Origin: Parafrankia elaeagni
GTDB lineage: Bacteria; Actinomycetota; Actinomycetes; Frankiales; Frankiaceae
Assembly: GCF_000374165.1 (NCBI RefSeq)
Contig: NZ_KB893715.1
Span: 4,679 to 68,678 of the forward strand
Direction: 5' to 3'
DNA length: 64,000 nucleotides
Positions 43,993 through 47,672 of the stretch are shown piece by piece; the first letter of the stretch is position 1, and every line of letters begins with the position of its first letter. Under the pieces are notes generated by a model, which saw nothing but the letters and a program-made list of their open reading frames with translations, had not been told where the DNA came from and ran no database searches. Made by a program: the position numbers and the translations under genes.

Positions 43993-44970
43993 TCAGGACA
44001 GCGGCGAGTACTCCACGAACTCGAAGAGAAGGTTCTCGACGGCCTTCGGGTCGACCTGAATGCGTTCGCCGGGCACCGCCGCGCTCGGAGCCATCTCGGT
44101 GAAGCCGGTGCCCCGCGCCTCGAGGTCCTTGCGCTTGGCGTCGAGATCGGTCACCGCGATCCGGGTGGCGTAGGGCCCCGGGCCCCAGGTCGCCAGGTAG
44201 CGCCCGACCGCGCTGTCGCCGTCGAACGGTTCGATGAGCTCCACGACCGAGCTGTGGCGCAGGCCCATCCGCATGCGCGCACGCCGGTAGCCTTCTTCGG
44301 CGATGACCTCCACCGGCCCGTCCGGCTCCCAGTCGAGGTAGAGGGACACCCGCCGCAGCGTGTCATCGAGATCGCGAACGATGTGGCTGCGGGCGACGAC
44401 CCGGATGATCTCGCCGGGGGCCGCGTCGCGAGGCTCGGGCGGCGGGTCCTGGAGCGCCGCGTCGGGTAGCCGCAGGGCCTGCAGCGGGAGGACCTCGATA
44501 GCGAGGCCGCCGTCGTAGCTGGGGTCGTAGCGCAGGGATTCGGGCGGTATCCCGATCCAGATGCGGTCCATCGGCATCTCTTCGGACGTGGGCGCCAACC
44601 GGTAGGGCACCCGCCGGCGGACCAGCTTCCCGATCAGCTCATCGAAGTCCCTCGTGGCCAGGAGGGTGGCGTGCAGCTTGTGGGGGCGGAACCCGCCCTG
44701 GAAACGATCCAGTTCGGCGAGGTGCTGCGGGAAGAAGGGATCGTCCGGCTGGTCCAGGTCGCGGTGACCCTGCGGCTCGATCACGGTGGGTGCCACCGCG
44801 AAGGATGGATGTACCCGGGCGAACCAGGCCACGTAGGCGTGCCGCTGCGGGGCCTGCCGCCACTGGGGTTTCGGCTCGCGCAGGCCCAGGGCCTTGACGA
44901 ACGTGGTCATGGTGGCGTCAGGATCGGGAACCATGAAATCCGCGCCGATCATCAGATCGAACACACGCAC
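43993..44970 (-). CDS. VOC-family (glyoxalase/dioxygenase-like) protein
   Basis: A 325-residue protein with paired beta-alpha-beta-beta-beta-type modules of the vicinal-oxygen-chelate superfamily. The N-terminal module starts DLMIGADFMVPDPDATMTTF and the C-terminal one is near YATRIAVTDLDAKRKDLEAR...NLLFEFVEYS. Metal ligands are not as clear as in the two extradiol proteins; the final glutamate is plausible, as is H in KLHATLLATRDF. The GTG start at 44970 has GGAG upstream. The long palindrome at 45033-45056 is its probable operator. The function is unknown. Confidence 0.72.
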   Translation of the reverse strand: MRVFDLMIGADFMVPDPDATMTTFVKALGLREPKPQWRQAPQRHAYVAWFARVHPSFAVAPTVIEPQGHRDLDQPDDPFFPQHLAELDRFQGGFRPHKLHATLLATRDFDELIGKLVRRRVPYRLAPTSEEMPMDRIWIGIPPESLRYDPSYDGGLAIEVLPLQALRLPDAALQDPPPEPRDAAPGEIIRVVARSHIVRDLDDTLRRVSLYLDWEPDGPVEVIAEEGYRRARMRMGLRHSSVVELIEPFDGDSAVGRYLATWGPGPYATRIAVTDLDAKRKDLEARGTGFTEMAPSAAVPGERIQVDPKAVENLLFEFVEYSPLS

Positions 44971-45444: not shown

Positions 45445-47142
45445 ATGGACGCGCAGTATGAGGTTGTATGGCCGCTGGGGCGGCGGGTCGCCGACGTCGG
45501 AGTTCCGGCCCTGCCACCGCGGGTCGCCGATCTGAACAGCGCCGTCGTCGTCGAACTGTGGGACCACGTCTTCCGCGGCGACGAGGTGTTCCCCGCGGTA
45601 CGCGAAGAGATGCGTCGGCGTTATCCCGGTATTCGCTTCGTCGACTACAACGCGTTCGGTAACTTCCACGTCGCCGACGAGGAGGAGACGCTGGCGCGTC
45701 TTCCCGAGTTCCTGCGCGCGCAGAAAGCGGACGCCGTCATCGCCGGCGTCGGTCATTGAGGCTCCTGCACGCCTGCCGTGTTGCGGGCTTCTTTCACCGC
45801 CGAACAGGCGGGTGTTCCGGCGATCTCGGTCGTCGGTAGCCTTTTCCAGTCGGCGGCCGTCATCGTCGCGCGCTATCTCGGCTTGGAGGAGGTTCCGCTC
45901 GCGGTGTATCCGGGTCGGATCACGGCCGACTCCGCCGAAGAGCTGACGGAGAAGGCGCGGACCACCCTGACGGACCAGATCGTGGCCGGTCTCACCGCGG
46001 GGTCGCCGCGGCTGGCGCCGCCGCCGCCGGAGCCGGAGCCACGCGAGATCGTCTTCCGCGGTTCGATCGACGAGGTGAACGACCACTTCTACGACCGGAT
46101 GTGGACCGACGGCCTGCCGGTAATGCCACCGACCATCGACCGGGTCGAGCAGTTTCTCGCCCACACCGACCGCGCCCCCGACGAGATCATCGCCGAGATG
46201 CTGCCGGACCGGCGCGCCGCGACGGTCTGGAACGTGGCGGCCAACGGGGTCATGGCCGGCTGCCGACCGGAGTACATGCCGGTGCTGCTGGCCGCGGTCG
46301 AGGCGATCGCGGACCCGGCGTTCGGCCTGAAGGACAGCGGCGGCGGCGCCGGCTGGGAGCCCTTGGTGATCATCAACGGGCCGGTGATCAAGGAGCTCGA
46401 CTTCAACACCGGCACCGGTGCGCAACGGATGGGGCGGCGTGCGAACACCTCGATCGGCCGGTTCCTGCGTCTCTACATCCGCAACCTGGCCGGGGTCCGC
46501 ATCCCTCCCGGGGAGAACGACAAGGCCGGGCTGGGGCGCAGCTTCCACGTCGCGATCGCCGAGGACGAGGACACCGTGGACTCGGTCGGCTGGCCCACCT
46601 ACGCCGAGGATGTCGGCGTCGCCCGGGGGCAGAGTTCCGTGACGGTCCACGGGATACTGGGCGAGACCGTCCCCTACGGCGACCACGAGGGGTCGACGAA
46701 CGACCCGGAGACCTATCTCGTGCCGCTGGTCGAGTCCTTCGGCAAGGGGATGCTCGGGCAGTGGGTCTGGATCGGCCTGGCCTGGGCGGAGTGGCATCCG
46801 ATGCTGCTGCTCAGCCCGCACTGCGCCCGGGTGCTCTCCTCGCACGGATGGACCAAGGACCGGGTTCGCCAGCGCATCTGGGAGGATGCCAGGGTTCCCG
46901 CCCGCCGGGTTCTCGCCAACGGGCGCTGCGTCAATCTCGACCTGGCGGAGCAGGTCCGGTCCGGAAAGGTGTCGCCCGAGTTCCTGCTCTCTGACGACCC
47001 AGACCGACTGATCCCGACGCTGTTGCGGCCCGAGGACCTGCGCATCGTCGTGGCGGGCAACCCGGACATGTACTGGCAGCGGGGATTCTGCGGCCACGTC
47101 CACGGCAATCCGGTGACGAAACTGATCGTCCCGAGACGCTGA
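45445..47142 (+). CDS. UGSC-family selenoprotein candidate (in-frame TGA read as selenocysteine)
   Basis: A continuous 565-residue protein if the TGA at 45757-45759 is read as selenocysteine (position 105). The frame before it ends DAVIAGVGH. The next codons are TGA-GGC-TCC-TGC (U-G-S-C), then TPAVLRASFTAEQAGVPA, which is exactly the motif that names the UGSC family, known from marine and other bacterial selenoproteins. The second part (about residues 200-565) is a conserved uncharacterised domain with DGLPVMPPT, GWEPLVIINGP and a C-terminal HGNPVTKLIV. Codons 45758-45791 can fold into a SECIS-like stem with loop CCUGC. Without Sec insertion only a 104-residue fragment would be made. A redox role is inferred. 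Confidence 0.85.
45757..45791 (+). promoter_or_regulatory. Selenocysteine TGA and SECIS-like hairpin
   Basis: The TGA at 45757-45759 starts a hairpin. An upper stem CACG (45768-45771)/CGTG (45777-45780) closes a 5-base loop CCTGC. The lower stem pairs 45758-45765 with 45783-45791, with one bulged C (45784) and one U-U mismatch. Bacterial SECIS elements lie at this position, immediately 3' of the UGA. The fold was worked out by hand. Confidence 0.65.
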
Positions 47143-47145
47143 AGT

Positions 47146-47196
47146 GGGCCGCATACGGTGGGCCGAAGATGTCCTTCGGTCCACCGTGTGCGGCCC
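47146..47196. terminator. Terminator hairpin after the UGSC gene
   Basis: A 23-base inverted repeat (47146-47168 with 47174-47196) around a 5-base loop, with two G-T type mismatches. It begins 4 bases after the UGSC stop codon and separates it from the convergent ABM gene. It supports 47142 as the true end of the UGSC transcript. Confidence 0.85.
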
Positions 47197-47287
47197 GGCC
47201 GGAGAACTCAGGCCGGGGCCTGCATCTCCGGGGGATCAATCGGTTGGAGCACTTCCATCAGGGTCGGTCGACCGGCGGAGACCTCGC

Positions 47288-47596
47288 TCAGACCGCGCCC
47301 TTGCCGTCGGCGGACTCGGGATACGGCTTCATGATGACCGCCTGGGTCGGGCCCTCCACGAGATCGGCCGTGCGGGCCCGAATGACCCTGACCCCCTCGC
47401 CCTCCGCGTGCGTACGCAGGGCCGCGCCGTTCGTCCACTTCTCCACCAGGTAGACACCGTCCCGGTTGGTGTGTACCGCGTAGAGCTCGCAGCCTTCCTC
47501 CTTGTGCACGTCCACGGCGGCTTCCGCGTAGATCGCGGCTACCTGTTCGGCCAGGCCGGGCTTTGGCCTGATCGTGGCGGTGACGACTATGGTCAT
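47288..47596 (-). CDS. Antibiotic-biosynthesis-monooxygenase (ABM)-domain protein
   Basis: A 102-residue single-domain protein of the ABM/YgiN type, a dimeric alpha-beta barrel. It begins TIVVTATIRPKPGLAEQVAA and contains GCELYAVHTNRDGVYLVEKW. Members include quinol monooxygenases and many uncharacterised proteins. ATG 47596 was chosen because AAGGGA lies upstream; an earlier ATG in the same frame has none. It lies downstream of a long palindrome that separates it from the aldo/keto reductase operon. The function is not assigned. Confidence 0.85.
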   Translation of the reverse strand: MTIVVTATIRPKPGLAEQVAAIYAEAAVDVHKEEGCELYAVHTNRDGVYLVEKWTNGAALRTHAEGEGVRVIRARTADLVEGPTQAVIMKPYPESADGKGAV

Positions 47597-47672
47597 GGCT
47601 CTGGTTCCCTTTCGTTCGTATTCCTGGTGCCGCACCGGGGCATCGCGGTTGTCCGCGTTTCTCGCCGGAGCC

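Follow-up and report, generated by a model that had tools for sequence, protein, structure and literature searches.

The comparative data strongly support selenocysteine (Sec) decoding of an in-frame UGA, codon 105, in a gene of the window, that is, the whole analysed stretch of 64,000 nucleotides, which corresponds to positions 4679-68678 of contig C46 in genome G000. From its sequence, this gene very probably encodes one full-length selenoprotein, in which a UGSC domain is fused to a separate, unnamed partner domain (Table 1). On the contig the gene occupies C46:50123-51820, between a divergent VOC/glyoxalase-type gene (43993-44970 of the window) and a convergent ABM-domain gene (47288-47635). 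Its frame starts at the ATG at 45445, meets the TGA of codon 105, followed directly by the residues G-S-C, and is then open until the TGA at 47140-47142. The TGA therefore sits exactly at the U of a U-G-S-C motif, as originally predicted. As for the accompanying description of two open stretches split by one TGA, the TGA is indeed single; the listed start of the second stretch, 45778, is just its first GTG, and the frame is open from 45760 onwards.

The sequence is protein-like on both sides of the TGA, as had been proposed. The Pfam profile PF24696, whose gathering score is 25 bits, matches each half separately, at opposite ends of the domain (26.5 and 33.4 bits), and reaches 94.1 bits when the whole domain is read across the TGA. 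This is the only PF24696 match in the whole genome, with one TGA inside it. The UGSC domain shows the family signature of Sec or Cys followed by G-x-C, and in an alignment of 65 sequences, Sec or Cys at position 105, G106 and C108 are each found in 64. The earlier label of UGSC family nevertheless suits only the first third of the protein, the remainder being the partner domain. As the score against the equivalog NF041046 is 54.5 bits, below the curated cut-off of 125, the fusion protein is not filed as a member of that family. A PDB profile search with the UGSC domain returned six weak matches, the best with an E-value of 0.093.

Table 1. Coordinates of the fusion gene, its predicted elements and the selenocysteine machinery of the contig (window positions unless a contig or locus is named).
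Feature	Position	Strand	Support or remark
UGSC-partner fusion gene, predicted selenoprotein	45445..47142	+	565 residues counting one Sec; Sec = residue 105
UGSC domain, residues 6-184	45460..45996	+	PF24696, 94.1 bits
In-frame TGA, probably read as Sec (U of U-G-S-C)	45757..45759	+	homologue codons and SelB distribution
Candidate bacterial SECIS apical stem-loop	45771..45788	+	GCCUGC-CGUGUU-GCGGGC; 11 nt after UGA
Partner domain, ~residues 210-565	46072..47139	+	conserved WxDGLP, MAGC (C273), R339, E373, W383
Hairpin after stop, between convergent genes	47145..47197	+	24 bp, unbroken, -53.4 kcal/mol, z -8.4
selD	C46:104573-105478	minus	SelD profile, 393 bits
selC (tRNA-Sec)	C46:105542-105633		82.3 bits; ARAGORN tRNA-SeC
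selA	ORF L045:15549-16979 = C46:105548-106978		TIGR00474, 394.5 bits (cut-off 267.9)
selB	C46:107062-108792		271 bits (cut-off 242.25)

To evaluate the in-frame TGA we used fused homologues from a species-genome collection, chosen by similarity to the fused query; at least 80 were retrieved and at least 582 candidates were confirmed. Among the 80 listed, 65 have TGA as the aligned codon, 13 encode Cys there and one encodes Gly (L127, with the motif GASG), and one locus with a broken frame could not be aligned (L119). Thus, the Sec/Cys column that the original prediction expected at position 105 is present in 78 of the 80. Each of the 65 TGA homologues has only that TGA in frame, and 62 of them lack any other stop, a TAA or TAG being also present in L151, L165 and L172. 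The listed taxa include Chloroflexota, Pseudomonadota, Actinomycetota, Acidobacteriota, Bacillota, Bacteroidota, Verrucomicrobiota and Thermodesulfobacteriota, and the closest protein among the matches listed, at 49-50% identity, comes from a Chloroflexota MAG. As 65 homologues carry the same TGA, a sequencing error is very unlikely. It is also very improbable that translation ends at the TGA, be it a genuine stop codon or one that arose by recent mutation, leaving a pseudogene or a protein of 104 residues: the unremarkable hairpin of the window's own gene (see below) and the odd composition of its contig would fit such a loss, but the same codon is TGA in homologues from several phyla, mostly without any other stop, some 460 codons downstream of it are still open and conserved, and a complete sel cluster lies on the contig.

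In a tree of the window protein and 64 of the 80 loci, built by a quick method and including six of the 13 Cys loci, the Cys rows need three changes; two actinobacterial Cys proteins, from Curtobacterium and Nocardioides, sit, in this quick tree, within an otherwise-Sec set of 14 rows that also holds the window protein. Separately, a Bacteroidales-rich branch (L153-L161, L163 and L171) shows CG[IL]CT[PI]KE instead of UGSCTPAV.

The distribution of SelB follows that of the TGA. In a comparison covering the genomes of 44 of the 80 listed loci, SelB scored over its cut-off in 26 of 30 genomes with a TGA homologue versus none of 14 with Cys or Gly (Fisher p 2.7e-8); the four TGA-bearing genomes in which it was not found at this threshold are all MAGs (L116, L117, L132 and L143). 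Together with the occurrence of Cys at 13 of the 15 listed loci without TGA, this makes it hardly conceivable that the codon specifies an amino acid other than Sec or undergoes general readthrough, in favour of which nothing was found.

A whole-genome search, as suggested by the original prediction, recovered selA, selB, selC and selD, all of them on the window's own contig. With these genes, the Sec/Cys column and the association between SelB and TGA, the claim that this actinobacterium inserts Sec is upheld by the comparative evidence. The whole cluster lies outside the window, within C46:104573-108792 (L045:14500-18814), with selD about 53 kb past the end of the fusion gene. Since the listed selA start overlaps the tRNA gene, the true start should be further in. 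A second tRNA-Sec match over the cut-off (contig C45, 48.8 bits) was rejected, as it is a tRNA-Ser. The seven matches to formate dehydrogenase alpha in the same genome have no inner stop, and therefore no second Sec client was found among these genes.

The region following the codon was evaluated for RNA structure across the family, with the caveat that shared ancestry inflates all the folding, loop and codon-preference statistics that follow. First, at 61 TGA sites the 45 nt that follow the codon fold better than GC-matched stretches taken from the same genes (mean z -1.72), which is not so at the 13 Cys sites (+0.25; Mann-Whitney p 4e-6). Second, GU-containing loops occur at 55 of 63 TGA sites but at none of the 13 Cys sites, CGUGUU being the commonest loop (26/63), and all six pairs of a fixed stem register form at 39 of the 63. 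Third, codon choice points in the same direction. The common stem of PAVLR-type genes is GCCYGC-CGUGUU-GCGGGC, and among the 44 genes of PAV[LMVA]R type, 29 of 33 use TTG for Leu, a codon with a gene-wide share of 12%, and 43 of 44 use CGG for Arg, compared with 27% gene-wide. By contrast, the two Cys homologues whose peptide is PAV[LA]R have CGC. The candidate stem-loop of the window has six pairs, one of them G-U, the loop CGUGUU and an energy of -9.0 kcal/mol for the 18-mer. The window's own 45 nt are not unusually stable alone (z +0.14), its hairpin has a synonymous-shuffle value of 0.08, with 25 of the 63 TGA sites below 0.05, and in longer stretches of the window the free minimum-energy fold differs from the family stem.

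A second hairpin, of 24 bp, follows the far stop, its first paired base standing three positions past the last base of the stop codon. The original prediction was right about its existence; its role as a terminator, probably shared by the two convergent genes, is plausible, although 47145-47197 has no run of T.

We then turned to the partner domain. For the residues after 184, neither Pfam nor NCBIfam gave a family match better than expected by chance, and no PDB sequence matched, but C273 is kept in 64 of 65 aligned sequences. Fusion is one of two arrangements of this domain. Of 396 genomes of the phylum, 29 contain PF24696, in many cases with one TGA. The stretches fetched for the 29 UGSC loci L056-L084 include the partner domain in 27 cases, L082 and L083 being the exceptions, and in two of the 27 (L080 and L081) it is fused. 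Among the nine relatives of the order with matches, eight have a CGSC-type UGSC gene, and thus Cys at this position, beside a separate partner gene, while the ninth (G025) gave a match of 47 residues only. Close relatives lacking both Sec and Cys, which would have spoken against the original prediction, are thus not what was found. Flags of one TGA in these relatives had raised the possibility of Sec there, but it was rejected, because in these split UGSC genes, whose motif is CGSC, the TGA is the genuine end of the gene.

Because they are neighbouring genes elsewhere, the UGSC protein and its partner very likely work as one enzyme, as judged from gene arrangement. By a motif rule, 13 of 21 scored split partners (fused L080 being left out, and five more loci having no anchor) start with a thioredoxin-like CxxC/S...VPT stretch, with CxxS instead of CxxC in two of the 13. 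The best NCBIfam match for one such N-terminus is thioredoxin, although weak (E 0.048). The CxxC partners found beside stand-alone UGSC genes are those of L058, L060, L061, L062, L064, L065, L067, L070, L071, L073 and L077. Side-by-side split genes and thioredoxin-like stretches thus offer a lead to the chemistry of the enzyme. We also observed fused proteins with neither Sec nor Cys at the motif, which reads GASG or MGTS instead (L127:4001-5635, L081:1447-3195 and L177:7827-9551), and therefore the partner domain may function without the redox pair.

A mechanism can be proposed, tentative in its chemistry. SelB and tRNA-Sec from the selD-selC-selA-selB cluster of the contig very probably decode UGA 105 as Sec, possibly helped by the short hairpin just 3' of it. 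The selenol of U105 and C108 of the UGSC domain would form a UxxC redox pair. The selenol would then attack or reduce a small organic molecule, taken up from outside and bound to the partner domain; C108 would resolve the intermediate as an Se-S bond, and a thioredoxin system would reset the enzyme. What can be read directly is the UxxC, a third conserved Cys in the partner (C273) and the repeated association of the two domains, either fused or encoded side by side; the chemistry as a whole, from selenol attack or reduction to thioredoxin reset, is a possibility to which we give somewhat less than an even chance. It competes with another explanation, namely, that the protein has a general role in thiol redox or detoxification, in the manner of a peroxiredoxin or thioredoxin, and is not a catabolic reductase. 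The UxxC motif suits such a protein, which we consider quite possible, if less likely than not; however, the fused protein has no thioredoxin family match at E ≤ 0.001 among Pfam and NCBIfam profiles, and its homologues have many uptake and catabolic neighbours. Among 147 of the 148 proteins adjoining fused genes, called with a simple ORF caller and after dropping one long protein, we counted 24 TctC, nine SBP_bac_5, four luciferase-like monooxygenases and two SelA, these being raw counts without a background rate.

TctC is found in 11 of 135 proteins one gene further out, where thioredoxin-reductase profiles match six of the 135 (E ≤ 1e-20); a regex for TrxB found one among the neighbours of the 80 loci, and in Variovorax SRS16, trxB lies three genes before the UGSC-partner pair. 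The window itself holds Rieske dioxygenase subunits, a P450, an LLM oxidoreductase, an aldo-keto reductase, an amidohydrolase and a branched-chain-type ABC uptake system. Transport and catabolic genes likewise surround the gene, or the gene pair, on plasmids of Acidovorax, two Variovorax, Sporomusa and Natrinema (annotation was present in five of the six plasmid regions fetched). Given these uptake and catabolic genes, both around homologues and in the window, a catabolic setting appears to be common for the UGSC family, again from counts without a background rate, and not unusual as first thought. The same census included five FGE-sulfatase, five GldK-type and five sigma-70 matches, perhaps from the Bacteroidales-rich branch, their loci not having been assigned.

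The expectation that automated annotation would break the gene in two was borne out in a relative, Acidovorax sp. T1, where the annotated CDS stops at precisely the TGA of the UGSC motif and the table of genes, known to be incomplete, has no CDS for the remainder. This Sec-type UGSC-partner gene (L174:8640-10400) resides on the conjugative IncP plasmid p2-T1, about 6 kb from IS1071. With the window copy falling below the NCBIfam cut-off and the CDS of a relative ending at the active site, a catabolic enzyme may hide in many genomes.

The Sec trait appears to be an exception in its order, in which SelB scored over the cut-off in one of 36 genomes, that of the window, and in none of the other 35. 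The contig is also deviant: stretches of it differ in tetranucleotide profile by 0.11-0.19, where 16-kb controls average 0.091 (sd 0.014) and reach at most 0.130. The GC content of these stretches is 0.67-0.70, compared with 0.70-0.74 in 17 control stretches (one of which holds 6,000 N and measures 0.485 with them and 0.727 without). On these grounds the Sec trait looks acquired together with its client, and we regard C46 as a region that is mosaic or was gained by horizontal transfer. Alternatively, the contig could be contamination, with the selenoprotein and the sel genes coming from another actinobacterium. This rival, although unlikely, is a live one: the contamination of the assembly is 5.46%, the deviant profile and GC content would fit it, and the matches listed for congeners include none to the window region that is both long and close. 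Against it, two stretches at the far end of C46 are 93% identical to a genome of the same genus, G017, which along one typical contig shows 91-98% collinear identity, and the sel cluster, with a GC content of 0.735, is typical of the genome in composition, unlike the rest of C46. Either way, gene and machinery are on one contig. What we take to be kdpB/kdpC-like genes stand at the start of this otherwise catabolic contig (394-1290 of the window and L047:2843-5965).

Published work describes how the entire Sec trait has moved from one bacterium to another, also among actinobacteria (PMC5029168). Another report states that all Frankia genomes in its study contained selenoproteins, and mentions neither selA nor selB (PMC4531530); our order-wide SelB count neither confirms nor denies that statement. 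It is tempting to speculate on a transferable catabolic island with its own extension of the code, in which selD-selC-selA-selB travels with a Sec enzyme into a lineage without Sec decoding, this enzyme being a selenol reductase, fed by thioredoxin, for a small molecule that the cell imports, with glycine reductase as its working analogue, and having stayed unnamed since annotation can cut it at the active site. Taken in full, this scenario is improbable at present. One sel system in 36 genomes of an order, on the contig of its client, is nonetheless a good test case for the spread of the 21st amino acid.

As far as our literature searches show, this member of the family is new. To the same extent, the evidence for the fused subfamily, from co-occurrence and at codon level, is also new, as are the break in a relative's annotation and the sporadically occurring sel cluster near its client. 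The glycine/sarcosine reductase and FarB-type systems are anaerobic multi-subunit complexes. GrdB/PrdB (PF07355) and FarB of the proposed fluoroacetate system FarB/FarE (PMC10838667) resemble the fusion protein in that a Sec protein acts with a partner on a small substrate, which shows that such a pair can do chemistry of this kind; the likeness is in the manner of working and no homology is claimed, PF07355 having no match in the fusion protein at E ≤ 0.001 in a Pfam profile search. With the UGSC selenoprotein family (PF24696; NF041046), whose functions a 2026 review lists among those largely uncharacterized (PMC13188914), the fusion protein shares the domain match across the TGA, the U-G-S-C motif and the Sec/Cys exchange, and differs in having about 380 extra residues that hold the partner domain. 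UGSC-containing selenoproteins are an established family, already in print in 2008, with 255 Sec and 21 Cys forms in the GOS data, in a survey that also mentions a UGSC/Unknown_1 fusion (PMC2398784). That report rests on aquatic metagenome data; in both cases a UGSC selenoprotein is joined to a conserved domain of unknown function.
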